From contig NC_052488.1 in the NCBI RefSeq assembly GCF_009730915.1, positions 21,632,305 to 21,696,304 of the forward strand: a stretch of 64,000 nt of DNA, given 5' to 3'. The translations under genes were made by a program, and so were the position numbers. This document shows, piece after piece, positions 5,594 to 47,921 of the stretch; position 1 is the first letter of the stretch, and each line of letters opens with the position of its first letter. The DNA is from Dioscorea cayenensis subsp. rotundata. Its lineage: Eukaryota > Streptophyta > Magnoliopsida > Dioscoreales > Dioscoreaceae. The notes below the pieces were generated by a model. It made no database searches and was not told the origin of the DNA. It worked only from the letters and a program-made list of their open reading frames with translations.

Positions 5594-7744
<2,151 letters not shown>

Positions 7745-10726: not shown

Positions 10727-11166
10727 TAATGGTCACATCTGAAGCTTTGTTTTTCTTCAACCTTTAGACAAGAAGTATGATGTAGCACTTCGATGGATTT
10801 AGACTTTGAGCAGAGAGATAAAAGATATTTTATATGGAGAAAGGACGTCCTTTAATTAGAGAGTACTTAGTGGATCGTTGGAGTGGGCCTTTCTTGGGCT
10901 AAATCTTGTTAGAAGGCCTTCAATTCGACTCCAAATCATTGCCCATCACAAAAAAGCTCACTTATGCATGCATATGCCCATGAAAAAGACATTAATGTAT
11001 AATTTAATGTTACAAGAAGTATGATGATGAAGGTGAATGTTAATATTTTTTAGTAATCTTGGGTTTTCAATCGTTTTCTTTATGATACATATATGCTACA
11101 TGATTCATATATATATTAGTTTTAAGATTTTAGATTGAATTAAATCTTTTAATTTTCATGATGGAG

Positions 11167-11220
<54 letters not shown>
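11167..11220. repeat. Compound (TA)n(TG)n microsatellite
   Basis: TA units change directly into about 18 TG units, with no recognised gene nearby. Confidence 0.9.
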
Positions 11221-11224
<4 letters not shown>

Positions 11225-11928
11225 GTTAAAAGATCCATCACTCTCTTGGTTTTAAGACAAGTTAGCTCATGTAATATGTCAAAAAAATAAAAATAAAAAT
11301 AACAAAAGAAGATCAGCATCTCCATTTAATTAAACTTAAGAGCTATTCTCCAAATTCTAATTAAACTGAGAACAAATTAAATGATATCATCTTAGACTTT
11401 CTTGCAAACAGGAAGGCCCACAAGTATTCAGATCTATATATATGAGATAGGTGATAATGATGGGAAGGCCAATTTATAAGGCTAATAAATACCAAATTGG
11501 AGCTAACATATAATGAAAGGCATTGATCAATTGAACATTGTGGTCCTAGAACTCTCATGGTCCCAAAATGGATGGGCATTATACTGGAGTTCAATAAACA
11601 ACTCAATATGACAAGCATATCTCACCCACTCAACACAACCCCAACAACGTAGCTACTTCTTCTATAATCCCTTCTGGTACCATTGCTCCCAAAAATCAAC
11701 ATATATAGCTGTCCTCTTAATTATGTTCATTAGCTATGAGAACATTAGTAGTTAGATTTTGGGTAGTGAGACTCATATATAAGAACTAATTATGATCACT
11801 AAACAATGAAATAATCATGTATAGAATTCTTTCTTTATTATCTTGCCAACTTTTGTTGCAGAAATTAGCTAACAAGGATGATGAAATACCACCACCACAT
11901 AATATAAGAACTTTTGTTGCAGAAGTTA

Positions 11929-12534
11929 GGTGGTGGGTCCCTATCTTAATACGTAGATCGGTATGGCCATGCAGGATCTCGGTCCCACATCCGTGCAGCC
12001 TGCGGGGTGTGGGACGCGATGGGCTAGGACCATAGTCCCCACATCGCCCTGCGAGACGCTCCTCTGATTGATATACCACCACCAACCCTTCCCTCAGAAT
12101 CGCAGCTATGGAAGTTAGAATGGTGGGTCCCCTGCCTTAATACTGAGTATCGAGCTATGGCTAGATCTTGGGTCCCACATCCGCTGTGGGCCCGGGGAGG
12201 GGTGTTGGGGACGCAGCTGGCTAGGGACCATAGTCCCACATCGCTCGTGGGACGCCTCATCTAGTTGATATACCACCACCAACCTTTCCCTGAATCGCTA
12301 GGCTATGGAGAGTTAGGGTGGTGGGTCCCTGTCTTAACATGGTATCGTAGCTATGGCTAGGATCTCGGGTCTCACATCTGCCTGGGCCCGTGGGGGTGTT
12401 GGGACGCAGTGGCTTAGGACCATAGTCCCACATCGCCTGTGGGAGACGCTTCCCTCTAGTTGATATACCACCACCAACCCTTCCCTGTAACTGCGGTTAT
12501 GGAGAAGTTAGGGTGGTGGGTCCCTGTCTTAACA
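11929..12534 (+). mobile_element. Tandem array of very small LTR (TRIM/SMART-like) elements
   Basis: A ~194-bp unit is repeated about three times. Each unit can be read as a ~137-bp LTR plus a ~57-bp internal region. The LTRs start TGTT(G)GGACGC and end CTTAACA, so the ends are TGTT...AACA inverted repeats. Clear LTR copies are 12008-12142, 12203-12339 and 12397-12534; a degraded first copy ends near 11951. Directly after the LTR ending at 12339 comes TGGTATCGTAGC, close to the initiator-Met tRNA primer-binding site TGGTATCAGAGC. Directly before LTR starts comes a purine/G-rich tract (CCGGGGAGGGG, CCGTGGGGG) acting as a polypurine tract. Each LTR carries AGTCCCACATCG and, about 25-30 bp on, GATATACC, a plausible promoter pair. 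There is no coding capacity. Copies differ mainly by single-base indels, which could be age or sequencing error. Calling it TRIM/SMART-like is inference from structure. Confidence 0.75.
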
Positions 12535-12657
12535 ATTACTACATGATTTCTCAATGAACACTGGCAATTAGACAACAAGCTCACGGAATGTATCCATTTC
12601 TTAAGGAAATTTTCTAATTTATTATAGAAGGAATGAGATTAGATTTTGAGGCTTCAT

Positions 12658-13650
12658 GCATAGTTATTTTTTTATTTTTTATTTTTTGAGGTAGGGCGCG
12701 GGTGGGGAAATTGCCACAACGTCTTCACCCTCTTGAAACTAGAGAGCGCGGTCAGGAGGAATCAAACTCGCGTCTCTCCCAAGTGCATAGTGTGAGGTGT
12801 CCAGCACTGTTTGAAGCTCTAAGATGGATGTATAACTTAATATTGAGTTTGTGCAGGAATTACTGTAGCAACGGGGATGCAGAGAATGGCTGTAAACCTC
12901 ACTGAAAATTTTCTTTTCTGCCAGGTACTGCAGCAAAGTTACTGTAGCATATATACAGTAGCATCCGTGAGAGAATTTCTAGTTCTGGGAATTTCGTGCG
13001 GGCGCCATGTGACCCGCATGGAGACCGTATGGGTTACTGTAGCATCCCGAATGAGATACTTAACTCTTTATTCTCTCTTCAATGAATAGTGCATTCTCTG
13101 AGGTTTTTTGAGAGAAAAAGAAAGGGAGAGAGGGCTATGGGTTAGGGCTTCAACATCCATCAAAGGGGAAGCCTTGAAGACATCCTAGAGCTTCGGATCC
13201 GAGCTTGTGAGCTCATGAGAAGAAGAAGTGAAGGTATATTTGTACTCTTCTACTTCATTCTTGTAAACCTAAGCTAGGGGTTGCAAGAAAGTGGGAAAGT
13301 TGCTAGGGCAAGTTGTTTATCATCTTGTTGTGTGTTCTTATTTGCTCAAGAGAGGCTTATTGTATGTTTGTATGCATTGATTAGCCGGATTAAACTAGGT
13401 TGTAGCTTAAGGGAGAAGAAGAACACTGTAGCACTTCCCATATCAATTGAACACTCTAGGTCCTTGTGGTTTCTCTTTGTAGTGAGGAGTTTTCCCACAA
13501 GGATTCTTCCTGAAAAATGATGTACATTGGTTTTTGAATGAGAATTGTGTATTTGTTTGTCGTTTGATCCAAAGGGGGTGAATAGTATTGACTGCCAGGT
13601 TTTGTCCGCTGTGTGTTGTATACCCCGGGCTCCCCAACACATAGTTATTT
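12658..13650 (-). mobile_element. Retroposed segment with SINE-like, A-rich 3' end and 11-bp target duplication
   Basis: The sequence CATAGTTATTT occurs at both edges (about 12658-12668 and 13638-13648), and the left copy runs into a T-rich tract. This is the pattern of a minus-strand, poly(A)-tailed retroposition. Next to the tail, minus-strand positions about 12821-12740 look like a tRNA-derived SINE head. There is an A-box-like part around GTGCTGGACACC, and a B-box-like GAGTTTGATTCCTCC following GAGACGC. The remaining ~800 bp is unlike a SINE. It contains several ACTGTAGCA motifs on the plus strand and reads like retroelement LTR/UTR sequence. No protein is encoded. The chimeric nature is inferred. 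Confidence 0.5.
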
Positions 13651-13868
13651 CTTTTGATGAATCTTGCATATTGTTAAACCAATAAATTCCAATTTGCTTG
13701 ACCTTCTAGTTTTTATAGTCGAGTTATTGGCTGGATGGCAAATGATGATCATATGTATGTATATATGCATTTATTTATTTTGATATAAGTAGATTGATCA
13801 CTTAATTATTGGAAAGAAAAATATATTATGAGAGGAATCTAGGTAAATTTATGGAAGGCTACTATAAT

Positions 13869-13871
<3 letters not shown>

Positions 13872-13914
<43 letters not shown>
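13872..13914. repeat. (TAA)n microsatellite
   Basis: About 14 TAA triplets in spacer between two transposon remnants. Confidence 0.9.
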
Positions 13915-13916
<2 letters not shown>

Positions 13917-14348
13917 TACAGGTGACACTTGTGACAAACAAACTATTAATCGTTTGCCTTGGTAGCACAACCAAGAAAATATGAAATTGAGAGCTTAGGT
14001 GGGATCGATGTTGGTCAACGAATTTTTGGATCACTTGCAAGAGATGTCAATGCTTTCCTTTTTAATCATAGAGCTGGAGTCCTTGAGCTTTATTTTCTTA
14101 ACTGAGAGATTGCAAATACTTAGAGAAAAATCATATGATTAATTTTAAATATAATCGGAACAATTCAATGGGAGTAAATAGAATTAAAATTGCGGTTTTT
14201 CCGTCATAATCACGTAATATAAGTAGTGGCATGGACTAGGAGGTGTTAGGCATTCTTAAGCAAAATCTCAAAGTCGTTCTTCTAGGAGGCCCATAAATCA
14301 CCAAAGGAAATTTTATAATGGGTTAGGCTGAGTATGTGACTGGATATT

Positions 14349-16181: not shown

Positions 16182-17566
16182 CATTATACTTTTATCCATT
16201 AATCTCCTACTCCAGTTGATGCTTACGAGCTCTGCTACTTGTCTTCAGAATATACAACACATTCAGTTTATTGGAGTTTAAAAGCTAATTTTTTCTCATT
16301 TCTTTACCCTTATTTCTAGTGGATTATTTTATTATTGCTTATTTCTAGTGGATTATTTTATTATTGATTAGTTAATTAAGAACTTATTATTTTGGTTTTA
16401 TAAAGTGGACAATTCATGAACCCTCAATCGTGTATTTGAAAAAGTTGACTCTCAACCTTTTACTTTGAAAAAAAATGAATTATCGGCTTTCTAGCGGTTA
16501 GGACTTATCATTAATTTTTTTTATTATTATCTTGAGAGTAGTATCTAAGATATTTTATACACCGAAAAAATTTAAGAACCAAGACTCTTTTTTCTTCTCT
16601 TCCAACCTCACAACCTTTAAGAACATGAACCATGGGGAGAATTTTTCAAAAAATTTATTTGACTAGAACTTGATATGTATATACAAATAAAGTGGATAAA
16701 ATATAAACTTATAATAAACTAAAAATACAAAAAAATTAAGGTATCATGAGAAGGAGAGATAAAAACAAAACAGAAAACAACCGAAAAAAAAAATCTATTG
16801 AGAAAAAAGAGAATGATAAAAAGTAATTAAAGAGATTGATAACACCATTCGAACTAGGCCTCATGGCTGAAAAGAAGCGCTTGATATATATTATACTTTG
16901 TTTTTGTATGATTAATTTTTTTTAAAAAAATTGGATAAATCAGGTGCTTATACACCATTAAATAAAACTTATATTGCTTCAATAATAATTAAAAAAAAAG
17001 CATTTTATAGCATGTTGTGTCATAGATGTAGAGTGACAAAGCAGAGCAACAGTATGATTGATTTTGAGTTTAAAGGTTGTTTCTTCCATGAATCATGAGT
17101 ATTGTTGAGAAATTTACGTACTGATTCCAAGTCTTGCATATATTATTCATTGACATGCTTGAAGTCATTTACTCGTGTTTTTTTTTATCCTAGTCTTGCA
17201 TATATATTCTTGGTTGAGTAACTGGCCTGGACAGCCAATGCTGACAACACTTTTGAGACGTTTGTCTGTTAATGTCCTTTTCCATCCATCTTCTTGTGTC
17301 CTTCCATTAACTTTCACATGTCTTGTGGATTTATGTGTGACTTTTTTTTAAAATACTAAAAAAAAACATGGATAAACCATTGCCACTAAAGAGTTTTATC
17401 CAATTTTTTTTTAAAAAAATTGTTCAATTGTTTTTTTTTTTAATAATTATGGGAGAAGACCATTGACTTGGGCTTGTTATCTACTAATCTGACGGCCGTG
17501 TGGAACGCATATATATCATTGCAAAAGAACACACAGTTTTCTTTGGTGACAAACCTTCAGCTCATC
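16182..17566. other. Spacer and 5' flank of NLR1
   Basis: AT-rich, with many homopolymer T runs. There is a tandem-like duplication of TTATTTCTAGTGGATTATTT near 16310-16360. No gene recognised. The last few hundred bases must include the NLR1 promoter, but no single TATA element stands out. Confidence 0.5.
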
Positions 17567-20500
17567 ATGGTTTCTGTTAACTTAGCAGGCATGACAGGAG
17601 CCATTCTTGCACCATTATTACCTCATGCTCTGGACAAATTAATCAGCTGTTTGGTGGAGTATCTTTCCAGGGACGAGGCATCATCCTCTAGTGAAGTAGA
17701 TAAACATCAACAACTGCAGAATGAGCAGGAAGCCTTGGAAGATGCCAATATCAAGCTCAAGATTATGCAAGATGAAGTCAGGAAGTTGCATAAACGAGAT
17801 AAAAAAAATATGAGGCTTATCCATATCAACAACAAACTCAGAGATGTGGGTTATGAGATTCAAGACTTGGAAGGTGATTTGGAGTACATGGAGCTGCAAC
17901 GAAAGGTTGAGGAGATCAACCTGCAGGATGAAGCTGATGACAAGAGACAATCTAAAAAACCAAAACGCTTGTTTTGGTTTTCTTGGATAACAGGACAATC
18001 AAGCAACAAAAGACGTCGGCTTTCTTCATCTGTGTCCACAGGTTTGTTGTCTTTTATATTTGTCTTAATTAATTTATCCAGTATATTTTTCATGTTCCTC
18101 TCAATCTGTATATATATTTGCATGCTAGATGGATAAATTAATCAAGGCAGATTTAATTTATGGAAATTATACTTTGGAATTTAATTATATTGCAGATGAT
18201 ATAGTGAATAGGATGAGGACTATTGTAAAACAAATTAATTGCATTGACTCAGAGATGACTACTGAAATTAAGGTGGATCAGTTGTTTCAACAAATTGTCC
18301 TGAATGGTGTTTATGATCCTTGGGGACAACATCAAGTGAAAAAAAACCATGGACGTGAGACGACATCATCAATAAAGGAAAGGAAGATATATGGTCGAGA
18401 CTCGGAAATTGAAAGGTTGACAGAGTTGCTGACAAAACCAACTAAGCTCATTGGCAATATTTCTGTTGTATCAATTAGTGGGATGGGTGGTATTGGCAAA
18501 ACTGCTCTGGCAGAATTTGTCTTTAACAGCCAAGAAATTAAAGATCATTTTGACAAAAGAGTATGGATATGTGTTACAGACAACTATGACAGATTCAGAA
18601 TCATCAAAGAAATCATAGATTTACTTTCTATGGATGATGACATTAAATTTCCACATGATACTACCAGTTTGGATCTTCTTGAGACAAAACTTAAAAGAAG
18701 TCTAACAGGGAAAAAGTTTCTGCTGGTGCTAGATGATGTTTGGTCTGCTGAATGGCAACAACTCCTTGACTCTCTTCGATCTTCACAGGTTAAGATTGTT
18801 AAAATCTTGGTGACTTGTAGAAATCCTAAAGCATTAGGAAGTCAAGACAGAAATTATGGCATTTCTTTGGAAGGTTTATATGATGCAGAATGCTGGTCAT
18901 TTTTTTTTAATTGTGTCTTCGCAGATGAGAATTCTGATAACTACCCGAAAAGACTACTTAGCATCGGATGGCAGATAATGAAAAAGCTGAATGGGTCACC
19001 ATTAGCAGTGAAAACAGTGGGAAGAATTTTAGGATGCAGTTTGACTGAAAAGCATTGGAAGGATCTATTAGAGAGTGATTTGTGGAAATTAGAAAATGAT
19101 GAAAATGATATTATGTCTGTGCTTGCATTAAGTTATTATCATCTACCTCAGCATCTTCAGTTGTGCATTGCCTTTTGTTCGGTGTTTCCCAAAAATTTTA
19201 GTTTTGACAAGTTAAGTGCTATTGACATGTGGATAGCTCATGGTTATGTACATGAAAATGGAAGCAGTTCAAAGACAATGAGAGATATCGGAAGAGAGTA
19301 TTATGCTGAACTAGTAGCAATGGGTTTCTTTAGCAATAATGTATCTTTCAAAATGCATAATTTAATTCATGATTTGGTCCATTCAATTTCTCATGGGGAA
19401 ATTTATATTTATGAGGGTCGAAAAGATGAAAAAATCTCAAAAAATGTCCGCCATTTATGTGCACGAAGTTTGTTTGATCTTGGATTGGTGTACAAAACTA
19501 ATAACTTGCGCACACTTGTGTTATACAGAGCTGGTGACGTGTGTGCTTTTCTCAACCATGGAGCGTTCAAAAGAATCAGAGTGTTGGTCATCTTAGATAC
19601 TAATATGGAAGAACTCCCCGAAACTATTGTGAATCTAAGATACTTGCAATATCTAGATTTGGAGAAAACCAATATCAAATCAATACCAGAATCAATATGT
19701 GTGCTTTATCAGTTGAGAGTGTTGAAATTGCCACCTCTGTATACCCACCCAAGTCTATTTCATAGCCTCATAGAATTTCGAGAGTGGAACTTATTTAAAG
19801 CTGATAATGCAATTTACTCCTCGCGGGGCTGGCCAATATTTTCTGTGAAAAGGGGAGGAAATAACATGATCTCACAATTGAGGAATATGAACGAACTAAG
19901 GGGATCAATTATGATTAATGGCTTGGAGAACATTGACACTGCAGAAGAAGGGATGAAAGCCAAATTGAAGGAAAAATGTCACATTGATGTATTAACTTTA
20001 AGTTGGAAATATACAGCGGATGGTTGCAAGCATGATGTCCAAGAAGAAGTACTTGAAGGTTTTCAACCTCATCCTAACTTAAATTGTCTATTCATTGAAG
20101 GGTACATGGGTTCCAAATCGCCAAGCTGGCTTATGATATTACAGAAGCTACAAACACTATACTTATTTGAATGTAGAAACTGGGCACGTCTACCTGCAGC
20201 ACTTGGGTTGTTACCCTCCCTTGTAGCACTGGGGTTATCAGGCATTAATAACATAACAATTGAGGGTGATGATACTGTGACTCAAATGTTTACTTCACTG
20301 GAATTCCTTGAATTGAAGAAAGCAACAGTTTCTTTCGAGGGCATGTTGTTGTCATCATCATCATCTTTAACAACAGCAAGTTGCCGCAAGTTATTTCCTC
20401 GTCTTCAGAGTCTGATAGTGGAGAAATGCAACGGAGTGAATGGATTACCCTGGAAAATGCTTTCTTCATTAAAAGCTCTCAAAATAAATGCTAGTCGTGG

Positions 20501-21614
20501 GCTCCAAGGTCAAGTGCCAGGATGCCTCCAAAACCTAAATTCTCTTACTTCATTGAAAATAAAAGGGTTAAAGATTGAAAACACGAACATGAGGGCACAA
20601 CAGCAGCAGCTGGGGGGACTCGTACCAAATTTACGAAAGCTTAACATAGAATGTTGTGAAAATGTGGGATTTCTACTTGATGTATTGCTTAGTATTCCTT
20701 CACTAAAGAAATTGACTATTTCCAAATGTGGTGGTCCAGTAAGTCTTTCTTCACTTTCACACTTGTCTTTCCTTACATACATTTCATTACAAGAGGTGGA
20801 GATAACAGTGGATGACGTCACTCTAGTGTTTCCGTCTCTTCAAACTTTGAGATTGAAAGAAGCATCAATGATTTTCCAGAACATGCCATCATCGTCGTCG
20901 TTGTCGGAAACAACACAAAATCTAAACCACTTTCCCATGCTTACCGACCTCACAATTGCGTGTCGTGAAGTGAATGGGTTACATTGGCCCTTGTTTTCAA
21001 CACTAAAGAGCCTAAAGAACATAAATAGTCCTGAACTGGATGACCACTTGTTGCCAGGATGTCTCAATGCCTCCTCTGTTCTTACTTCTTTGCAACTGAC
21101 TGGGGCAAAGATTAAAACCTTTCATGCAGAGTTGATGGCGACACCGAATGCACTTCGGTATTTATGTCTTGAAGATTGTAATGAGCTGATATCAGTGGAG
21201 GGTCTACATGCCCTTCCCTCCCTGATATTTTTACGGATCATTAATTGCCACCAATTCAGAACCCTATTTATGGAGCAGATCACAGAACAGGGTGTCTTTC
21301 TTCCAAAACTCTCTGACATATATATTGAGTCTTGTGAAAATCTGGAATCTCTGCCGGCTTGGGTGCCTCGTCTTCCTTTGCTCATATCATTGAGTATTAC
21401 CAAGTGTCCCAAGTTCCATTCATTGCCGGAGGGCGGCCTCCCTTCCTCACTTCAAAGATTGACGATAAGAGAATGTGACCCCAGCTTAATGAAACAGTGC
21501 CAACAAGAGGGCTCTCCTGATTGGTTAATGATTGAGCACATCCCTGTACAAACTTATAAATGGAATGAAATTTATTTGGTATGGATCCTTCTCTTCTTCT
21601 CATTTGATTATTGA
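17567..21614 (+). CDS. NLR1: CC-NB-ARC-LRR immune receptor
   Basis: Two coding exons, 17567-18041 and 18196-21614, joined by a phase-1 GT-AG intron that is conserved in the two neighbouring NLR genes. The product is about 1297 residues. The N-terminus is a coiled-coil (Rx-N type) with an EDVID-like EIQDLEGDLEY. NB-ARC motifs follow in order: P-loop GMGGIGKT (about 254-261), RNBS-A HFDKRVWICV, kinase-2 LLVLDDVW (about 334), RNBS-B, GSPLA (about 424), CSVFPKNF, and MHN in place of MHD (about 545). Leucine-rich repeats fill the rest. The family recognises pathogen effectors and triggers cell death. The start was set at 17567 (MVSVNLAGM) because the longer frame from 17468 has no domain content. 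The final residues after PVQTYKWNEIYL look like read-through into an intron (a GT follows), so the true 3' end may be spliced. No inactivating lesion seen. Confidence 0.88.
20290..21120 (+). repeat. Duplicated LRR block within NLR1
   Basis: The block beginning TSLEFLELKKATVSFEGM (about 20292) and running through the NGLPWKMLSSLKAL and PGCLQNL parts is repeated about 540 bp later. The second copy begins PSLQTLRLKEASMIFQNM (about 20832) and runs through NGLHWPLFSTLKSL and PGCLNAS. NLR2 and NLR3 carry this block once and stop just after it, so NLR1 appears to have gained repeats by internal duplication. Confidence 0.7.
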
Positions 21615-24600
21615 TCACATTATTATTTTCACTTTCATATGACCAGTCAAAATTTTATCTTAAGCAAATAATCATCTTCTCATATCTTATATGGTTTTGA
21701 TCTCATTTTTTGTCAACCCATGTCATATACCGCCTTTTTAGGATATTTTCACCTTAGATTACATGGAATTGTATCTTATGCATATCTTTATTTCTAAATT
21801 AGTGCGCAAGCACCACAATCCACTTGGTAAATAATCCACAAAAAATTGTGAAAAAACAACTAAGTAATGAAAATCCAGACCTTTTTTTCTTCTTTTTTTT
21901 ACAACCATCCTTACGAAAGACATGAATGAATTGCTTATGTATTCCTTTAGTCAGACATTAGGGTTCTTGTTTTATTTATTTATAGAGTATAGTTAATATT
22001 TATTTTTCATTATGTTATGCTTTCGCTTTATGTAAATAATCAGGAGGGTGTCCTGTTATAATATATGTGAGTTGTTTATCCATTTTTCTAAAAACTAAAT
22101 GATGGATGTCTATGTTAGTTATTTGCCATTTAGCATTTAAACTCTTTAGCTCTTGCAATTTCTTATTTTTTAAACCTTTTCATGCAGTGAGCATTTTTGG
22201 ATTAAATTCTGGCCAGTGATTATAGGCTGCAAGCCTACAAAGAGACCTCTCACAATTTGTCTATGGCAGTGAGTTGTTTTTGTTCGTTAATGAAAACTAA
22301 AGTGTGAACATGGTTGCCATTATTATCGGTAATGCCATATTTTATGAGTATTTGATGCTATTATTTAATTTATGCCCTTTTCATTGATGGTGGTTCATCA
22401 AGTGCGTTCTTTACTGTTCTAGAGTTTTCTTTGGGCACACATTGTAGCATATTCCTCAATTACTTTTTTGTTTTGTGGTTGCAGCTAAATTACATGCCCT
22501 TCTAGGCGCTCACCAGGGGGAGTAATTGCAGAGGAGTTGATCATTTTAACGTTATGATAGGAAAACAATCTGTCCTTTTTGTCAACTTTTGCTCAGTGGA
22601 ATTCAACAACTCAAAAGCATAACTCTCTTACACTCATGGTTTCAAAGTTACTTTCCACCCCACAAGAAGGAGGTAAATTTGTGCATGATTATGAAACATT
22701 TTGCCAGTGTGATTTTCTATACTTCATATTCGCACTTCTGTTGTCTGTTCATACTACATTTTTTTTGGTGTTATTATATATTTTAATTTCACTTAATGTT
22801 CATCAGTATTTACTGGTCATATTACTTGCTAGTTAGTGTCCTCAGCCTCACTGTCTCACAATTCCTTATTCTTTTAGCCTTTTAATGCATTTCTCTTTCT
22901 CAATGAATTCCAGCTAGTGATCACAGCTGTGAAGGACCCTCTAGGAATTTATCTATAATTTGTAACCATAATATATTTTTTTTTCTCTAGAAAAACCATA
23001 AATTTGTTTTGGCTCAAAAAAATTAATGAAGACATGATTTCGGTAATCATCAAGAACATGATCTTGTTTGGCTAACACCCTCCTGGCTGTTGTAGGTTCA
23101 TCAAGTTTGTGTTTTACTGGCATGGATCCTTTTCTATTTGTTAAAAAAATTATCTTCAGAAAAGGAACACATATATGAGGAAGCCTTGAATTTTGACTAG
23201 TGATTTTTTATCTGGTACTTCTCCTTCGAGTTATTTACTGTTTATAATTTATAATCTTTCATTTTATTACTTCGGAAAATGAGTTTGGATTAACTCCCAT
23301 ACCCCATGAATAAATTTTGTCACTGTTTCAAAGCATTTTTCAATTATGAAGCAGATGGATGAATAGTTTTCTCTTTTTGTAAAAATTGCAAATACATCTA
23401 TTACATAACTTCTTTGAACTAATGCAGACTTCATTTTGAAATAACCTGGTCAATGGAAGTGAGGACAAGCAAAGTCAAAGTTTTCTCCAACAAATGCTCA
23501 ATACTTGCGTCTCTTTAACATGCTGCTTGGGCTTGAATTTATAGCATCAATTATATGACTGACACTCTTGAAAGATTGGAGGCAAATGTGATTGCATCAC
23601 CACCACTCATCTGAAGCATTCAAGATTTCATTAAACAAACTGTGAAGAGAAATGTGGATGAAGCTTTTTTTTTTCCTTTTTGGTTGGAGAGCTAATAACT
23701 GTTGTGTTATTAATATCGATTTACTCTTTCTCGATTTCAATGTTGCTGCAAAAGCAAAATGTTATATGTTTTTGTTCCGACACATTTTTTTAATTAATAA
23801 AAATAGATAAATCACAAATTTATTGAGACTTGTCACTATAACAAAGGATCCTAGTTGTTGTATTAACCTCTGCTTTGCAGATGGATTCATAAACATATAT
23901 AACATGGTCTTTAGAAAATTGGCAGAAGCTGGGAAGCACTTGTTATTGTTTAATTATGAATTTGTGGTGCAGGAGAGAACCTGGATTGACCTCTAAGTGT
24001 GACCTTTTCATGTTGCCTGAATGGAAAATTTTAATAGATGCTTAATTAATCATCTCGTTCTTTTAAAGAAAAGCATCTCAGTATTATTTGATCAGCCTTT
24101 TTTGACAGATGTTTATCTAAATTACAAAGGAAAGGTTAAAGTGGGAGAAATAAAAAAAAGAAAAACTGGGTGGAAAAATCAATAATTAATCCAAGACAAG
24201 GTGTTCCATAAAACAATTTGCATCAGTTTATACTGAATTCAGTCAGATTCATTCAATTTTCTATATAAAGTTACTGACTAATGTGCCCAGTTCTCATTTT
24301 GTCTGAATGAAACAAAGCAATAAATCATACAGCCTCATAGTCTTGGCACCAAAAACATGGAGAAATTGGAGAGAAATCTTTCACCATGTGTAGTCATCAC
24401 CAATCACAAATATAAAAAAGCAGCCTTCCTCTTGAGATTAAAGAATAATTAGCTGCAAAATAGAGTGACACTGAAGGGCAATTAAGCATAATCATTCCTG
24501 ACAACTCTGAACATAATGAACTTTTGATATGAAATCACATAGCAGGTCCACGGTAGTAGCATCAACAACAGAAAACAACATGTCCAATGGAAGCATACTA

Positions 24601-24948
24601 AGTAAACATACACAAGTTAAAAAATGATAACATGAAAATAACAGAACAAACGATGATAGATATAACCCAAGAGGTTAACCAGAATCCAGTCATCAATGTG
24701 AAGCTCCAACAAATCCGATGAAGTATCAAGACCTGATAAACAAATGTAATTATCAAAAAGCATTCCAGAAAAAATCACAATCATAACCTATGTATGGATG
24801 CAGCAATCAATCCTAGAGCATGAGAAAACCATACATACACTTGGCGAAAGAAGATTAAAGTGCTGATTAGTTGAAACTGGAAAATAAGAAGGTAAACCAA
24901 TTAATCTAATGAAAAATAGAAGAGGTTTGATAGCATCCACATACCGAA
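21615..24948. other. Spacer between the tail-to-tail NLR1 and NLR2, with an internal duplication
   Basis: No coding gene recognised. Related passages occur about 0.7 kb apart. GGATTAAATTCTGGCCAGTG near 22200 matches AATGAATTCCAGCTAGTGATC near 22900, and GGTTCATCAAGTGCG near 22391 matches GGTTCATCAAGTTTG near 23096. They may be duplicated 3' UTR exons or introns of NLR1-like genes. The remainder is AT-rich. Confidence 0.45.
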
Positions 24949-27566
24949 TCATCTTTTTGAGTCTGTTGTTATATCCAAATATCTAAGAGAGGTGAGGCCA
25001 GAGATGCATGGCAGTTGTCCATTGAGTCTAGGACTAGAAATTATTCGGAGCCGCTTCAGTGATGAAAGCATGGACCACGGAAATCCATTCAGACTACTGC
25101 ATTTTGAAATACGGAGATAACGAAGCCGAGGAAAAAAACTGCGGTCTTGCATTGTTGCTTCGGACAATGACATTCCCTCAAATGACACTGAAACTCTCTC
25201 CAATTCCAGCTTCTCTAAGGATGGAAACACCACCTGTATGTTGTCACTGCCCTCAATTAAAACATGGTCCATGCCACTCAAATACAGATACTTGAGGAAC
25301 AGGAGTTGTCCAATTTGTGGTAGCCTTGATAAGTTTTCACAAGAACACAACTTAATCTCATGTAGATTCTGTAATTCAAGTGTTGAAAGCCAACTTGGAG
25401 ATTGGAAGCCATTGTATCCATCAATGTAGAGATACTTCAGAGAGTGATGAGGTTGGAGAGCTTCAAGTACTTGCAATGCAACTTCAGAATCACAACCTGA
25501 ACCAGAATTCGACCAAACCAAGAGCAAACACTCAACTTGATCTCTTTCTTTCAATTTAGCAATATTGCTCACATCTTCAATTTTCTTGATGTTCTCAAGG
25601 GATCTGATGGTAACGATTCCTCTTAGTTCCCTCATGTCATTCAGTTGGTGCATCCATTGGCCAACATCTTCATTCACAGGACATTTTAGGTCATAATGCA
25701 TGATGAAATCAGGCACAATTCCATGGTTTACTCTGGAAAATGGAAGACCAGTGTGGTTGCTAGAAGAGTGGAGAAATATATCCGTGTCTGGTAATCTCAA
25801 TACTTTCAGGTGGTGAAGTTCAGGAAATGATTCAGGCCATGACTTGATGCTTGTTTGGCGTAAATCAAGGTAGCGCAAGTGCTTCAGTTGGTGAACAACA
25901 TTTGGAAATTCTTGGACATCATAATCAACTATAATCAATACACGGATGTTTTTCACTGCTTCAAGCACAAGTACATCTAATTCTGATTTATATAACACAA
26001 GTGTACGCAAGATTTTAATCTCATATACACCGCTAAGTTCGAGCTGGCCTCGCACACACAAGTGGTGAACATTCTTGGGAATTTTTTTTCGTGATTGACC
26101 TTCATATATATAACATTCATTTGAAGAAACAAAATGTGCCAGATCATGCAATTGATTATGGATGATGTAGGATGGCAAACAGGGATGAGGTGTGAAGATA
26201 GACATAGCCAATAGTTCATTAAAGCATTCACATCCCACCTCCTCAGCTGTCTTTGAAGTATTCTCAGCTCGAGGCAAATAACCATGTGCTAACCACATGT
26301 AGACTAATTCAGTCACATCAAACTGATAACCCTTAGGGAAAACTGAACAGAAAACAAAGCATAATTGAAGATGAGAGGAAAGAAGACTGAACCAAACCGT
26401 TAGTGCTGGCATAATGCCATCTGGATAATAAAATTTTGAATCCCTCAGATTTCTGTCCCAGACATTTTTCCAGTGCTTCTCACTCCGGTCTTGTCTTAAT
26501 ATTTTTCCTACCATATTTGCTGCTAAAGGTGATCCTTTCAATGTCATTGCAATCTCCCTGCCCATCGTCTGCAGTTCATCGGAGTACTTTTGAGGATGAT
26601 CATCATCATTCATAAGGATCCACCAACAGTCATCTTCCTTGAGACCTTTAAGAATTGTTTCATATCTCTTGCCCATTCCCTTCAATAACTTTTGATCCCT
26701 GGCTATAACAATGATTTTAACACAATCAATCTCAGTAGATTCTAGAAATAACAAGAGTTCCATCCATTCACTTGAACAAACATCATCGAGCACCAAAAGG
26801 AACTTCTTTGATGCTAAATTCACTTCAAGCATTCGCTCCAATAATTCCAAATTTGCGTAATGTGAAAATCTGGAACCTCTGTATGTGGAAAATGACTCTA
26901 GAATCTCTCTTGTGATCCTCAGCCTATCAAAATTTTCAGAGACACAGATCCATGCTTTTTCATGGAAGTGATTAGCGACATCTTGACTGTTGAATACACA
27001 CTGAACTAGGGTAGTCTTGCCAACTTCACCTGTTCCAATCACTGGGTAAACTGAAATCTGTCCACTGATACTCAACTGCCTCAACATCTTTGTTAATTTC
27101 TCTATCTCCCTGTCTCGGCCATAGATTTTTCCAGCATTTGTTGACACTGTCATCACAGGTTTATTGGGGGTCATATGTTGCTGCTTTCCAACTTCACTAT
27201 CTTTCTTCATCATCTTTGGTTGTCTAACCCTACGATTCAGACAACCTTGGATGAGGTGTTGTGCAATGTTTCTTATTTGATCAATCAAACTGGAATCTGC
27301 ATAATAAATTTGAATGAACTATAACTAAACTAGGGCAACGAAGAGCAATGAATTTATTTATCTGTTTTTTTTATTAAAAAAATTGCAATAAAAATGAATT
27401 TGGTAGAAAGACAAACCTTGGGGACGTTTTCTTCTTCTACCAGATGGACTTGGAACAGTTTCAAGTAACTCTGTGTACTCCAACTCATCTAACAAGTCTT
27501 GAATCTTATAGACAACATCGCTGACTTTGTGAGAGCTCGTTGGAACGTGTTGGGTGTTAAACAACA

Positions 27567-27607
<41 letters not shown>

Positions 27608-27825
27608 CCCATCCAAAACATCATCATCTGTTGCTGGGATCTATCTTTCTCGATATTTTTCTTGATCATTTTCAAAACATCATTGAGGGAAACCATTTCA
27701 TCTCTCAAAACATCGGATGCAGAGAGTTCCTGTTTGGAAAGATAATCATCAACATAGCTGTGTAGTTTGTCAAACTCAACCTCAGCCAAAAAATCGAAAG
27801 CCTGTGAGAAACTTGAGGATGCCAT
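24949..27825 (-). CDS. NLR2: CC-NB-ARC-LRR protein with Asp tract
   Basis: Two exons on the minus strand, 27825-27417 and 27296-24949, with the same phase-1 intron as NLR1 and NLR3. The product is about 918 residues. The CC domain begins MASSSFSQAFDFLAEV and contains an EDVID-like VYKIQDLLDELEY. Between its helices sits a run of about 13 Asp encoded by a GAT microsatellite. NB-ARC motifs are present but partly atypical. The P-loop is GTGEVGKTT, still fitting GxxxxGK[ST], although the usual GMGG is altered. Kinase-2 ends DDVC instead of DDVW. GSPLA and CSVFPKGY are normal, and MHD is replaced by IHN. The LRR region stops after ISGLTSLRYLDI, at the same homologous point as NLR3. The frame is open throughout, so it may be expressed. 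The altered P-loop and kinase-2 residues raise the question of nucleotide binding or a helper/decoy role, which is speculative. Confidence 0.83.
27568..27606. repeat. (CAT)n microsatellite coding for poly-Asp in NLR2
   Basis: About 13 CAT triplets on the plus strand, read as GAT (Asp) on the minus strand, inside the coiled-coil exon of NLR2. Length changes would alter the Asp run without shifting the frame. Confidence 0.9.
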
Positions 27826-28114
27826 GCTGATACATTTCAGGGAAGGGAAGAAGAGGTTTTGTGTGTTTTTGTTACAGTAATAATTAAAGTGGGTAAACCA
27901 TAATTTTAGAAGAATAAACCCGGAAGGAAAACAAATACTAGAGTTCTCTCACTAGCAATGAGACTGAGGCACTTGATACAAGAAAAAGAGGAGAAGAGGA
28001 AAATAAAGAAGAAACTGAAAAGGGTAGGGAAGTTGGATCGGCGAAGGCTACTAACTAGAATCACAGGCCTGTCCGAGCTGACTGAGGGAGTAGACTACTC
28101 CTAAGCTATATTAG

Positions 28115-28885
28115 GGTTTGAATTGCCGGGAATGTTCGCAACTTTTGCGCTCATGAAATTGAGGGAGCGCTTGAAAGCTATGGAAAACCACCATGAAAGA
28201 AGCATATTAGCAATTTTAAGGATAATAGTATGAAAAGATAAAGCAAGTAATTGAAAGATATGAGTATTTCGTTCCAGCCAGATATTTTAAATAATTGCTC
28301 CAAAACCGAGGTCCCACAAAGTCCGTTGACTAGAATTTAACGATGGAGCCAGGATGTCTAAATTCAAGAGATAGATGGAAGGGGTAAATGTAACTCGAAT
28401 AATTGATTAAAGAAGGACCAAATTCGTTCCGAGTATTCACATTCGAGAAAAAAAGGTGTTCCACTGTTTAAGAAATTTAGAAGTTTTGTGATAGAGAACA
28501 ATTGTATCTATGGCATTTTGACTACATCCTTTTTTGAACAAATTTAAGAAAGTTAGAATTTTATTATCCCAAACATGGCAACAAAATAAAGTAATTTTAT
28601 ATGGGCAATAGAGATTTTAGAATTGAGAGTATTGCGGATTGCGCGAGCCTCCATCTATTAAAATTTGTAGAAGGACTTAACAGAGAAGATTCCATTTTTT
28701 TTTTTTTCTAGTACCCAGGTATTGAAATCATCCTGGTTGTTAGAGCAGTCAGGAATTAAATTCAAAAGAGACAAGTGCAAAGACTTGGTGTTGGAAGTTA
28801 GATATAAAACAGATATCAATAAAGTAAAAGACCAAGTATCAATAGGCCAAGCAACCGTTAGGCAAGTTGTTACATTTGACAAATA
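28115..28885 (-). pseudogene. LINE reverse-transcriptase C-terminal fragment
   Basis: Minus-strand frames, broken by stops and frame changes, read in order: DDFNTWVLEKKKNGIFSVKSF, then a part with DNKILTFLNLFKKG, then FFLECEYSERIW, and finally NIWLERNTHIF. These are the hallmarks of the zf-RVT and C-terminal region of plant L1-type LINE polymerases. The fragment lacks the endonuclease and catalytic reverse-transcriptase domains. It lies about 0.3 kb upstream of the NLR2 start codon, in the shared NLR2/NLR3 upstream region. It is a decayed 5'-truncated insertion; exact ends were not determined. Confidence 0.75.
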
Positions 28886-29092
28886 GCCTCTTGTTTTGTT
28901 TAGGATATTTATTTAGAATAATCAAATATTTTATGCAACATGTGGACACGATTGCTTTGGAAAAATCGGATGTTAAATTTTAAAATTTATGTAACATGAG
29001 GACACAATTAAACGCGTTTGTAAAAAATAAAATTATCCAATGGAGAATACCAAATTTCCACTTTCTCAAGTTGAGAAAAGAAAGTACAATAT

Positions 29093-29977
29093 GTTTGGAT
29101 GGAGGTAATCATCCCCCTCTAGAGGGGGATGATTACTAATCCCAATGCACACCCATGTTTGGGTGTGCATTGGATTCTTTGATTACCCTCCATGGGGTGA
29201 TGTTATCACCCCATGGAGGGTGATCATCATTCCCCCCAAAATTGGGGGGAATGAGGGGAAGGGAGAGGGTAATGGACATGAAATGTCAATTTTACCCTCT
29301 CCCAATGTATATATATATATATATATATAATATTAATATTAAAATAATTAATTTATAATAATTAGATAATAATTCTATATTAAATAAATAAATATTTGGG
29401 GGTAATGGGTATTTTTTCACGGAAAATTTTTATTTTACCCTAATCCAAATTATTTGTATTAAAAAATATTAATTTAATTAAGAATTATTATAATTAATTC
29501 CAATAATTATTAAATGAAGATATGTTATTTAAATATTTAATTTAAATATTAAAATTAATAAATGATATTTAAAATATGTATAATTAAAGAAAATTTATTA
29601 ATTAACCGTTAATTATAATAATTAAATCATAAAGTGAGAAAACTAATTAAATATTTAAACATAATTAAATATTTTATAACTAAAATAATTAATTGATTTA
29701 ATTAGTTAACTATAATAATTAATATGAATAATACAAAATATTATTATAAATAAAAATTATTTATTATTAAAGAAAAACTCACTATATTATTTAGTATTAT
29801 TTGATTATATTAAGGGCACAAATGTAATCATACACTATCTTCCTTTTTTATTTTTTTATTTCTAATAAATTACTTATATACTTTTCTCATTCCCAATGAA
29901 TTACTCTCTCAACCAAACAAAGTTTTCATTCCCATCCCCCTCTCCAAAGTTTTCATTCCCCATTCCATCATCCAAAC
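29093..29977. mobile_element. MITE-like element with tandem perfect hairpins
   Basis: The left end GTTTGGATGGAGG and the right end (CCATCATCCAAAC) form short terminal inverted repeats. The left ~210 bp contains five successive hairpins; the interior is very AT-rich. This arrangement is common in non-autonomous DNA transposons of plants. No clear target duplication was found, so the limits are approximate. The right end lies about 135 bp upstream of the NLR3 start codon. Confidence 0.55.
29105..29303. repeat. Five consecutive inverted repeats
   Basis: 29105-29136 is a perfect 32-bp palindrome. 29142-29154 pairs with 29161-29173. 29185-29201 pairs with 29205-29221 (17-bp arms, 3-nt loop). 29228-29239 pairs with 29242-29253. 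29261-29272 pairs with 29292-29303 and encloses a smaller GACAT/ATGTC stem. All arms were checked by eye as exact complements. Confidence 0.9.
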
Positions 29978-30056
29978 GGTACCGAAGAGCTGTCTCCACA
30001 ATCTCTTTCTCCCTCTCGATCTCGAGCTGTAAAGCCATCTGTATCCTCCACAATCG

Positions 30057-30059
<3 letters not shown>

Positions 30060-30096
<37 letters not shown>
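30060..30096. repeat. (TC)n microsatellite in the NLR3 5' leader
   Basis: Pyrimidine TC/CTCT run immediately upstream of the NLR3 start codon (30114), probably in its 5' UTR. Confidence 0.85.
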
Positions 30097-30097
<1 letters not shown>

Positions 30098-30113
30098 TGT
30101 TGCTGCTGCTGCC

Positions 30114-32963
30114 ATGGCTTCAGCTAGCTTGTCAGCCTTGGCAAGATTTTTGCTGTCTCCTCTGCCTAACGTGGTAGTGGACAAATTATTCACTTATTTA
30201 TTTGATTATCTATCCGAAGATGACCCATCATCATCATCAGCCACCGATGCAAATTCCCACAATATTTCGAAAGATGATTTGGAAGCCTTGAAGCGCTGCA
30301 TTGGCAACATCAAGTTCAATCTAAATACAGCCAAACAGCTTCAGAAGCAAGACCAGAACCTCTCCCACTTGCTGACACAATTCAAAGATGTTGCCTATGA
30401 GATAGAAGACTCGCAAGATGAATTGGAGTACAGGGACCTGCAGAAAAAACTCGAGGAAGATCAGCTATCGCCGCCAGGTTTGTCTTTCTTCCATATCAAT
30501 TCAATACATGAAATAAAAATAAAAAAATCTACTTAAAATGAGTTGAAATTCATCATGCATGCAGCCATCTTCGTTAGCGATCTGCGGAACATTATAAAAC
30601 GATTTAATAGAATTGAGTCTGATCTAAGGCGTGCCGTTGAGATATCTGTGCATATGACCAAGCCAAATCTTGGTTTACAGCATGAACGAATAACTTCATC
30701 TGCTGTTACTGAAAGTAAAATCTATGGACGAGAGGATGAAAGAAAGCAGTTAATTTAAATGCTGAAGATGACAGGAGTTGGAAATGTCTGTGTCCTGCCA
30801 ATTGTGGGGTTGGGTGGTACTGGAAAGACAGCTCTTGCTCAAATTGTATTCAACGATAAACAAATTGAAAAACATTTTCATTATAGGACATGGGTTTATG
30901 ATTCTCAAGAATTTGATCGAGTGACTATCACAAGAGAGGTCCTGGAATCTGTTAGTAACAATGAATTCTCATGCAGTACGAATTTGGACAGTATGGAAAG
31001 AAAGCTCAAAAAAGCTTTGGCAGGGAAGAGGTTTTTGCTTGTTTTGGATGATGTTTGGACTCATGATTGGAAATGTTTACCAAGTTGGAAAGGTTATTCA
31101 GGTTGGAAAGGTTTTACAGGTTTTCTAGAATCTGCTGGTGCAGAGTGTGTCAAAATTGTGGTGACAACTAGAAACTCATCGGTACTGGAAGGGCGGCTAA
31201 CTCCAGACATATTTACTCTGAAAGGATTGAAGAAGAAGGAATACTGGTCATTTTTTGTAAAATGTGTATTCGGTGAGGAAGAAGACCCGGCTAAGTGCCC
31301 TGTTACGTTGCAAAGTATCGGAGAACGGATAGTGCAGAAGCTGAAAGGATCACCTCTGGCAGCGAAAACAATAGGAAGGCTCTTATGGAAGGACACTAGA
31401 GAGGAGCAATGGATGCGTGTCTTGGAGAGCAATTTGTGGGAATTAGGGACTAATACCGATGATATCATGCCTGCACTCGCATTGAGCTATGATCATCTAC
31501 CTGACCATCTTCAAAGGTGCTTTGTTTTTTGTTCTATCTTTCCCACAAATTACATGTTCACAATGCAAGATGTGGTCTACATGTGGATAGCACAGGGCTT
31601 TGTAAGTTCAGAGACACCAGAAGACACAGGAAGAGAATATTTTGATGAGCTATTGTCTAGGCATTTCTTCCAACCTTGCCAAGGTTCACCGTTCTTCAAA
31701 TTTCATTCCTTAGCGCATGATTTGGCACGCTCAGTTTGCGCTGGTGAGTGTTGTTCATATGATATGAGAGACATATCACATACTGTTCGGCACTTGTGGG
31801 CTCCAGGACTGAATAGTATTCAGCTTGAACCCCAACAGAAAAGTTTGCGCTCATTTGTGGTGGGAAAATTTGAAAGCAATTTTCATCTCTTCAATCGAAA
31901 TGAATTAAATGGCATATTGCATCACAATAGTGCAGCATTTAAAAGGATCCGGGTGCTGGTGTTAATTAATTGTAATGTGGTGTCTACATTTCCTGATGTT
32001 TTCAGTGACATGAAGCACTTGCGGTACCTGGATCTTTACAGAACCAGCATCATATCGGCACCAAAATCACTGTTTGTTCTTTACCACTTGAAATTGTTGA
32101 GATTACCGAATATTGATGTACTACCAGATCAATTCCACAAACTCATAAACCTTCGCTTTTTCAGAGTGAACACCGAAACTGTGACTAAAGACACAGTTCA
32201 TGCCTATGAGATTGAATTTCCTGTGAAAAAGGAGAGTGGCTACAAGATAGCACAGCTGAGGGACATGAATGACTTAAGAGGAACACTTGTGATCAGAAAG
32301 CTCGAGAACATCGACAACAAGGAAGATGCAAGAAACGCCAATCTACACAAGAAATGCAACATCGAGTGCCTGCGCTTAATTTGGTCAAATTCTGGAGATG
32401 GCTGTGAGTCTAGTATTGCAGAAGAAGTGCTTGAAAGTCTCCGGCCGCATTCCCAACTGAAGAAACTACACATCAATGGTTACATGGGTGTGAATTCTCC
32501 CAGCTGGTTCATGACACTTCAACTGGAAAGGCTTCAAACAATAGAATTCTATGCTTGCAAGAATTGGGCAACTCTTCCTCCACTCGGCCAGTTGCAGTTT
32601 CTCACCTTTCTATCCTTAAATGCCATAGATGACATAACAATTGAGGGTGATGATCAGGTTGTCTCTCCCATATTCCCATTCTTGAAAGAGTTGGAATTGA
32701 AGGAGGTTTCTGTGACTTTCAGAGGTATGCCATTGTCAGCAGGAACAGGTGGTTGCAGCTACTTTCCTTGTCTTGTTCATCTCAGGATTGTGTGCTGTGA
32801 TAGAGTTAGTGGATTGCCATGGCCAGTGTTGTCAGCTCTTCAAGTGCTACAAATTGAAGATAGTGAGGGTCTGGGTGATCAATTGCCAGGTTGCTTCAAA
32901 TACCTCACTTCTCTTAAACATATTGACATTAAGGGACAAACATGCAATGCTCTTCAGTGGTGA
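30114..32963 (+). pseudogene. NLR3: CC-NB-ARC-LRR gene with one in-frame stop
   Basis: Exons 30114-30477 and 30565-32963 with the same phase-1 intron as NLR1 and NLR2. Read through, this would give about 920 codons, matching NLR2 in length. The CC domain begins MASASLSALARFLLS, with an EDVID-like YEIEDSQDELEY. Codon 186 (30756-30758) is TAA, between KIYGREDERKQLI and MLKMTGVGNV, just before the P-loop. Everything after it is intact: GLGGTGKT, LLVLDDVW, GSPLA, CSIFPTNY and about ten LRRs ending LTSLKHIDI. An ATG follows the stop directly. Possible products are a 185-residue CC-only protein and, if reinitiation happened, an NB-LRR protein. MHD is replaced by FHSLAHDL. A single-base assembly error cannot be excluded. 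No other lesion was seen. Confidence 0.8.
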
Positions 32964-33644: not shown

Positions 33645-34025
33645 ATTTATATCTACTCTCAGTACTTGTAAATTTTCATATAGTATTTAATTATGTTTGA
33701 TTTGGGTAAGTGAACTATATATGCTTGGATTTTGTATTTGAAATGACCATTAGATGAGCAAACTCCTTTTCATGTTGACAAATTGTTAGTTTGTTCACGT
33801 TTAATTATTTGTACAAAAATCAAACCAATATCATTTTATATCTACTCTCAGTACTTGTAAATTTTCATATAGTATTTAATTATGTTTGATTTGGGTAAGT
33901 GAACTATATATGCTTGGATTTTGTATTTGAAATGACCATTAGATGAGCAAACTCCTTTTCATGTTGACAAATTGTGAGTTTGTTCACGTTTAATTATTTG
34001 TACAAAAATCAAACCAATATCATTT
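33645..34025. repeat. 189-bp tandem duplication
   Basis: Two nearly identical copies run from ATCTACTCTCAGTACTTG through to AAACCAATATCATTTT, starting at about 33651 and 33840. A third, more diverged copy lies at about 35793-36000. Confidence 0.9.
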
Positions 34026-34249
34026 TGTATGTTTATTATTACCAATAGTTTTAATCAAAATTCTATTGGATAGAACCAAAATCATTTTGCATGTTGCTAA
34101 CTAGAGAAGCTCCCTCTCTAGTTTGGGCCTTTTTTTCTGTTGGTTTTTTTGTATGGTGTTGTAGTTGGTTCTCCTATTTCTTGTGGGCGTGGGGTCTTGT
34201 TTTATTTGTAGCTTATGTTTGTTGCTCTCCTTTTTAATGAATGTGGTTT

Positions 34250-34290
<41 letters not shown>

Positions 34291-36601
34291 AAAGAACCAT
34301 TATAATTTGATTTCCAATTATACATCAAGGGTGCAATTCTTGATAGCTATTCAACATTCATCTACAAATGAATGACTTGTCCATCATTTTATGAGTTTCA
34401 AATGGTACTCCAAAGTTTTTCTATCCAAACTTTCTAATAATTGTTTGTTTTTTTGTTTTAATAAATAGATGACAAGCACGGAAGCCCTTCTTATTTAAGA
34501 GAAGCCAGTGTACACAGAAGTGGAGTTAATAATTCAACACACATGTGCTCTTACCTTATATAGATTTTGGAGTTCGATCTCAAGTCATTTTAAAATAAAC
34601 ACTCTAAAGGACTTGATGTTAAAAAACCAAAAGTCCATGACCACCAATTATATTTTACACATATTGACATTAGATCTCCTTTTTTTTATTTAATATCATG
34701 ATAAGATCTTGCCCATTGAAAATCAAGCTTTTGCTTTGGTCGACATTTGATTTTTTTTTTTTTTTTATAATTTAAAAACAGTGAGAACAATCACATACCC
34801 AAACAATCACATAATAATTAGCATCAAAGTAATCTCACTGAGTAATGGCGGCTGGATCAAAACCTAAACTGATAGTTTCTTGTGCATGTTAGGGAGTTAA
34901 ACTGGTAATTCATCTTATGTTGCTTTGCTTTATCTGAGAAAATTTTGTGAGCACTTTTTTACCAAATGCTCAAGGTTGATGATTTAAGATCAGTAGGGCA
35001 CCATCTATCAACTATTAGCAAGTGAGTGAGGGCCCAATTACTTTTGTTATTTTATGAAAATTGACTTAAATGAAAAAGATGTCTTGATATAAACACTGTG
35101 TTTGTACTAAATTAAATTTAAATATTGATTTTTTTTTCTCTCTCTCTCTCTTAATTTGATGAGGCTCATGTGTATACTTTCACATGAATGGCCCTGCACA
35201 ACCAGGTTGAAGATGACCCTACATTGCATGACTTCTCAAAGTGAGTTTGTCCTTAAATTAAACTTTTCTTGTACATGTTTAGTTGGAGAAAATGTCTTAT
35301 TCCTCAATTGAACAACTAAGAATAACTAGTATTTATATATTTTAAAAAAATAAAAATAAAAAATATTTAATAATTAACTTTTAGAAATATAAAAATAATA
35401 AATATTTATTATTCCATAGAAGAGTATAATTTTAATTTTAAAATAATTAATTTTTATTAATATTAATTAAGCCAAAATTTAGTCGGTTCAAATAAAAATT
35501 TTCCTTCAACCAAAACTTAAAAAAAAAAACTCTTTAAGCCTGCATCCTTATCTAATTAAACATGCTTTTGGGAAAAAAAAAAAGAAAAGAAAAAAATACC
35601 TTCAACCTATTTCTAGTGTCTCTTTTCTATCAACTATACCCTTTTTTGTTTTTTTGGGAAGTATCAACATTATTTAGCTATATATATATATATATATATA
35701 TAACTTGTTAATGGAGATTGACAATACAGAGTGAAAAAGAAGGTTTTAGACAACATTGAGTCCACATAACATATTGTACTCGGCCCTTTGTTAAGGCCCA
35801 TGTTATCTTCGTCTACCTCTGATCTGTGCTTGTAAAGTTTAATATAGTAATTAAGTTTAATTTGGGTTATTGAACTATGTTTAGATTTTGCATTTGAAAT
35901 GAATATTAGATGAGCAATCTCTTTTTCATGTTAACCAATTGTGAGTTTGTTCACGCTTATTTGTACAAAAAATTAAACCATAATCATTTTTTATGTTAAT
36001 TATTACCAATATTAATTTAACAAAAACTCTATTGGATAGAAGGACTATGATTCATCAAGGTTGACAATCCTTGGTAGCCATTCAACCTCCTCAACTGAAT
36101 GGCTTAATCTATTAGATGATGGCTTCAAATCTCTCCTCAGGCTTTTGATTTTTTTTTTTTAATTTTAAAATTAAACCTTATCTATTGAAGACCAACTTTT
36201 CACTCGGTTGGTGTTTGATTTATATTTCTTTAATTATTTAATTAAAATGGATAAAATTGTAAAGAAGTAGGATAAATTACAACTTTATTGAAAACAATGA
36301 TAGCAATCGCATAATATCAGCTATGACAGGTAAAAACAAAAGGAGATATTAATGTTTGCTGATTTTTTGTGCATGTTAGGAAGTGATTTGGTAATTATTT
36401 TATATGACTATGCTCTGCTAGAAATGAAATAAAATTCCATTTTTACCACTTGTTCAAAATTAAAAATTAATGCACCATCTATTCATTGTTAGATGATAAT
36501 TTATTTCAGATGAGTTCATACTTAGTTGCTTTTGCTATTTTAGGAATCTTTTGCGTAAGTGAAAGGGAGCATAATTTATTTACTGGTTTTCTGTTTTCTA
36601 G

Positions 36602-46600: not shown

Positions 46601-46677
46601 CCCTCATTAGATAAACTATTATGATCAGGAGGAAGGGCTTTAACAAGATCCTCGAAGGACCATCTTCCTTTGGCACC

Positions 46678-47856: not shown

Positions 47857-47921
47857 GTTCGGGTTGGAAATACCCCTACAATTCCAGTATTAAATATCAA
47901 AAATTGTATTGTACTTCATGA

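Follow-up and report, generated by a model that had tools for sequence, protein, structure and literature searches.

A short, GC-rich tandem repeat interrupts the 64-kb window (the whole stretch of Dioscorea cayenensis subsp. rotundata DNA that was analysed), and its layout raises the question of whether the units are LTRs and internal regions of a small retroelement, monomers of an ordinary satellite, or small RNA genes. Self-comparison, regular-expression searches and alignments resolve about 3.3 units of ~195 bp, arranged head-to-tail at 11882-12534. For positions 12004-12534, Tandem Repeats Finder gives a period of 197, 2.7 copies, 82% matches, 8% indels and a score of 675, and the ungapped repeat families that occur once per unit recur with a step of 187-198 bp. 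The array constitutes a GC-rich island, its GC content of 55% exceeding that of either flank (11000-11880, 30%; 12535-13400, 41%); the window as a whole has 34% GC, 1000 N being included in its length. Judged from its sequence features, the array is very probably a degenerate, 5′-truncated tandemly arrayed TRIM (TA-TRIM).

Within the array, three whole LTR-like blocks of 135, 137 and 138 bp and one 5′ LTR fragment alternate with three internal regions of 56, 60 and 57 bp, all in one orientation, which is the content of a TA-TRIM (Table 1). The alternation of ~137-bp repeats and ~57-bp spacers given in a preliminary description is thereby confirmed, whereas the extent of 11929-12534 proposed there holds at its right end only, the left coordinate falling within the 3′ fragment of the first LTR. 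The TGTT...AACA ends reported for the repeats are exact in LTR3 and LTR4, which supply the direct terminal repeats of TG...CA type; LTR2 has diverged to TGTG...AATA, and LTR1 has no 5′ end. In the case of LTR1, the two end motifs are spaced by 42 bp, compared with 44-45 bp in LTR2 to LTR4. No ORF of at least 100 aa in the ORF list lies within the array, and the basic unit measures ~332 bp, in keeping with the non-coding character and the size (<1 kb) of TRIMs.

Table 1. Positions of the array components and of the duplication at its left junction, numbered along the window.
Feature	Position	Strand	Sequence features
Direct repeat, 61-bp spacing	11848..11929	+	AACTTTTGTTGCAGAARTTAG at 11848 and 11909; at broken left junction
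LTR1, 3′ fragment	11882..11951	+	TGAAATACCACCACCA ... AAGTTAGGTGGTGGGTCCCTATCTTAATA; both ends match by sequence; 5′ half missing, middle strongly diverged
INT1, 56 bp, degenerate spacer	11952..12007	+	
LTR2, 135 bp, TGTG...AATA	12008..12142	+	USE-like GTCCCCACATCG at 12035; TATA at 12072
INT2, 60 bp	12143..12202	+	Degenerate primer-binding site GAGTATCGAGCTATGG; 3′ tract GGGGAGGGG
LTR3, 137 bp, TGTT...AACA	12203..12339	+	USE GTCCCACATCG at 12233; TATA at 12269
INT3, 57 bp	12340..12396	+	Primer-binding-site-like TGGTATCGTAGC at 12340-12351; 3′ tract GTGGGGG
LTR4, 138 bp, TGTT...AACA	12397..12534	+	USE GTCCCACATCG at 12425; TATA at 12464; array stops at its end

Because the phase of the unit in a tandem is arbitrary, the facts that do not depend on phase weigh most. 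The right edge of the array is the end of LTR4, where CTTAACA is followed by the flank ATTACTACATG, which has no similarity to the repeat; one unit earlier, an identical CTTAACA runs straight into TGGTATCGTAGC. This sequence thus opens INT3 at offset 0 and is identical to TGGTATCAGAGC at 10 of 12 bases, so that the near-match to a primer-binding site (PBS) described for the start of the best-preserved spacer is borne out; the initiator-Met name given to the site there follows common usage. Across the ~128,000 positions of the window, 3.6 matches to this PBS with at most two mismatches are expected by chance (~3e-5 per position and strand) and 2 were found, and the match is meaningful only because it is placed exactly at the LTR end. 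Such a site is present in one of the three spacers, INT3, while in INT2 (GAGTATCGAGCTATGG) and in the poorly preserved INT1 it is degenerate. For the Cassandra TRIM, TGGTATCAGAGC is given as the PBS (PMC7215508). G-rich tracts stand directly 5′ of TGTT in INT2 (GGGGAGGGG) and INT3 (GTGGGGG), as had been claimed for the spacers in general; that of INT1 (GCGGGG) is weak. These candidate polypurine tracts are short and lie within a GC-rich array.

The left side of the array is broken: LTR1 is without its 5′ half and a local duplication spaced by 61 bp occupies the junction, from which we conclude that the original left border is gone. The duplicated AACTTTTGTTGCAGAARTTAG at this edge is perhaps a repair or filler duplication. 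Target-site duplications of LTR retrotransposons measure 4-6 bp, commonly 5 bp; with the left end truncated, ATTAC, the 3′ flank of LTR4, does not recur at 11700-11960 as such a duplication. The LTR/TRIM interpretation of the preliminary description is supported in part, by the terminal motifs, the edge at the LTR end, the PBS at offset 0 and the G-rich tract in two of three spacers. When 11801-12600 was compared with the whole window by BLASTN, no convincing second copy was obtained: matches outside the array span 18-43 bp with E values of 0.4 or worse, and the remainder consists of the units themselves and of inverted self-matches, the longest of which measures 52 bp and lies within LTR4. 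A 17-base LTR core was also encountered in 2 viral and 8 prokaryote stretches (BLASTN, 17-35 bases, best E 0.003); these matches, which include no plant relatives, are attributed to chance.

Elsewhere in the window, NB-ARC/LRR, cytokinin-dehydrogenase and MYB domains are encoded, which mark the DNA as that of a plant. An NBS-LRR-like resistance gene cluster with members in both orientations extends over 17468-32963, comprising NB-ARC, winged-helix and LRR domains identified by Pfam at 18129-21614 (+) and NBS-LRR-like sequences, judged by eye from the ORFs, at 24949-27825 (-) and 30114-32963 (+). Pieces of a cytokinin dehydrogenase gene, with the FAD-binding and cytokinin-binding domains on separate ORFs, are located at 5633-7744. 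In a broken LINE-type element at 46022-49448 (-), Pfam recognizes pieces of a reverse transcriptase and a zinc knuckle, while an endonuclease-like piece scores 24.3 bits against a cut-off of 24.5. Other repeats include a tandem repeat with a period of about 231-239 bp and 3-4 copies at 57144-58070. At 33646-34030 and 35766-36041, a 189-bp segment is directly duplicated (98% matches), and diverged copies of it lie some 2 kb away. A run of unknown bases (1000 N in the window) at about 61100-62150 is probably a scaffold gap.

Comparison with published small LTR elements places the array among familiar forms. TA-TRIMs are reported as common in plants, with 129 subfamilies in 35 of 43 genomes, and those of maize range from L3I2 to L5I4 and include examples confirmed by PCR and sequencing (PMC4717578). 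The earlier claim that the sharing of LTRs is unusual thus finds no support, the same pattern being found in Wukong and Cassandra. The maize TA-TRIM Zma-SMART (PMC4717578) has the same LTR-INT-LTR-INT-LTR run with shared LTRs, the likeness considered here being one of layout. By our own arithmetic from that source, its array of five LTRs and four internal regions (862 bp, against a basic element of 280 bp) implies a unit of ~194 bp, and its array of three LTRs and two internal regions (499 bp) a unit of 219 bp. Zma-SMART has target duplications (PMC4717578), whereas none was found here, where the left end is truncated. In the case of Wukong, a maize TRIM (PMC4528315), a short internal region (72 bp, with PBS and PPT) and members with three to seven LTRs resemble the present array, while LTRs of 230 bp and an overall length of 532 bp do not; three LTRs occur in 8 and four in 5 of its 89 intact elements, and another 2 have six and seven, forms that its authors attribute to recombination between elements (PMC4528315). 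Cassandra (PMC7215508) likewise forms tandem LTR/internal arrays and carries the PBS TGGTATCAGAGC inside the LTR. Its LTRs contain 5S rRNA sequence (PMC7215508), in contrast to the array, which has no Rfam family at gathering score according to a cmscan of the window; 5S rRNA is absent at gathering score from the window and also from the four matches obtained up to E = 5 at 11001-14000.

With respect to size, the preliminary description had placed the unit close to the smallest elements known; ~332 bp is no record, elements of 292 bp (PMC3281118) and 233 bp (PMC4717578) having been published. FRetro129, a SMART (PMC3281118), is similarly very small and has TGT...ACA termini; its 292 bp comprise LTRs of 85 bp around an internal region of 122 bp, so that the array has longer LTRs and a shorter internal region. 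CcaRetroS9 (233 bp, 52-bp LTRs; PMC4717578) is also very small, and the LTRs of the array are longer than its own. At 57 bp, the internal region of the array falls below the three with which it was compared, namely those of Wukong (72 bp), Helenus-1_SMo (85 bp) and FRetro129 (122 bp).

As a TRIM, the basic element of ~332 bp would consist of an LTR of ~137 bp, the ~57-bp internal region and a second LTR; apart from the PBS, a purine tract and a GC-rich stretch, the internal region would hold little. By analogy with other TRIMs, its mobility would depend on an autonomous LTR retrotransposon, which would supply the reverse transcriptase and integrase that copy it in trans. As the most likely origin of the LTR-INT-LTR-INT-LTR run we infer unequal recombination among copies of one element by way of their LTRs, the explanation also given for Wukong (PMC4528315).

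The LTRs contain a further layout that may bear on transcription. In plant snRNA genes, the upstream sequence element (USE) has the consensus RTCCCACATCG; promoters of the U6/U3 class combine it with a TATA box, the USE being nearer by one helical turn than in the snRNA genes of Pol II, and monocot snRNA promoters require an additional element, MSP. The exact 11-mer occurs in the window only twice, in LTR3 and LTR4, where 0.01 occurrences per window are expected (one match in 100 first-order Markov simulations), and LTR2 has a version with one inserted C; these copies are paralogous and represent one event. A TATA motif follows 25, 25 and 28 bp downstream of the USE in LTR2, LTR3 and LTR4, respectively, a spacing within the range of plant U6 genes, although the TATA itself is weak (GATATAC). 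Near-matches to the USE (GTCCCACATCC) are present in INT1 and INT2 as well, and the motif may be a mere hairpin feature, since it folds as a hairpin arm in INT2, LTR3 and LTR4. Stretches resembling CCCACATCG may be frequent near the starts of plant LTRs, in which case the USE would be a common LTR feature. Among the matches listed from the open-access literature, no paper combines by title a TRIM with an snRNA-type promoter, nor the LTR core, or a USE, snRNA or Pol III promoter, with LTR retrotransposons. In the TRIMp3 group (Helenus, Ajax and Cassandra), the LTR carries promoters of small-RNA genes, which would be an analogue if the USE/TATA lead is real; those promoters are tRNA- or 5S-rRNA-derived (PMC10886601), whereas the motif described here, a candidate only, is reminiscent of the external U6/snRNA type. 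On sequence grounds the USE/TATA layout is a weak lead. It is improbable that an external promoter of U6/snRNA type, with USE and TATA about three helical turns apart, drives this LTR in place of the tRNA or 5S promoters of Helenus, Ajax and Cassandra; if it did, one transcript could span several units, given that the whole LTRs contain no TTTT.

The same motifs could alternatively mean that the array consists of tandem snRNA- or snoRNA-type genes, each unit providing a plant snRNA promoter followed by a hairpin RNA. Besides the exact USE in LTR3 and LTR4, its form with one extra base in LTR2 and the spaced TATA, this proposal can point to a hairpin at 12464-12526 (-28.5 kcal/mol, z -3.07, 2 of 200 shuffles folding equally well), a segment in the 3′ half of LTR4 that was selected after a first fold, which flatters its z value, and to a sub-threshold match to the U3 snoRNA family ACEA_U3 (20.1 bits, E 0.55) at 11806-11949, overlapping the left edge. 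Against it, a cmscan of the window brought no Rfam family up to its gathering score, and the four matches at 11001-14000 score 17.9-20.1 bits where the gathering scores are 37.5-80, so known RNA genes were rejected; ARAGORN found no tRNA. TTTT, which would end a Pol III transcript, is absent from all three whole LTRs, and folds of whole LTRs beat shuffled sequences mildly (z -2.18 for LTR4, -1.79 for LTR3 and -1.11 for LTR2). The two spacers that were folded are no stabler than shuffles (INT2, z -0.31; INT3, z 0.28), and no functional conclusion is drawn from the folding results. An RNA-gene origin, which also leaves the TRIM features unexplained, is highly unlikely. A foldback element, MITE or hairpin gene, suggested by the pairing of CCACCACC with GGTGGTGG in the LTRs, was rejected on the position of its arms, which are internal to the LTR. 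The TGTT and AACA borders might also be coincidental, the array being a plain local satellite or minisatellite with a period of ~195 bp: in a pure tandem the division into LTR and spacer is partly a choice of phase, other copies are absent from the window and the target duplication was not found. Such a satellite would have to accommodate a right edge that coincides with the LTR end independently of phase, a PBS-like sequence at the very next base after the LTR end in the neighbouring unit, and G-rich tracts preceding TGTT in two of the three spacers, and we consider it unlikely.

A further explanation, compatible with the TA-TRIM interpretation, concerns the differences between copies, and perhaps their number, which may be in part an artefact of assembly or polishing; the true copies would then be near-identical and the tandem recent or mis-sized. 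Units 2 and 3 (LTR plus INT) are separated by 17 substitutions and 18 indels, of which 15 involve a single base. As controls, the BLAST self-comparison supplied 10 further pairs of diverged repeats from the window, which together show 315 substitutions and 93 indels. Fisher's test gives p = 4e-4 under the main scoring; with one aligner and five scoring schemes, p lies between 3e-4 and 3e-3, and the unit pair shows 15-18 indels, mostly of 1 bp, and 17-21 substitutions; the test covers only the most extreme of three array pairs. The window also contains 1000 N. The other two pairs are milder, with 7 indels and 10 substitutions for LTR3/LTR4 and 8 and 16 for LTR2/LTR4. The ratio in single controls reaches 0.44, or 0.75 under one scoring, under which LTR3/LTR4 (0.70) and LTR2/LTR4 (0.50) sit within the control range. 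In addition, the control pairs partly overlap, so that they are not independent, and derive from a low-GC window as opposed to an array of 55% GC. The indel pattern suggests residual long-read error of the kind that polishing does not easily remove from a tandem, and a partial artefact is a serious possibility, albeit one to which we give less than even weight. Because of the indel excess, the age of the array was not derived from LTR divergence.

As a TA-TRIM, the array is an ordinary one, a further plant case of LTR-sharing arrays. Its use lies mainly in the caution that the divergence between copies in such arrays may include sequencing error. If the USE/TATA layout works as a promoter, it would represent a further promoter logic among the TRIMs that carry small-RNA promoters.
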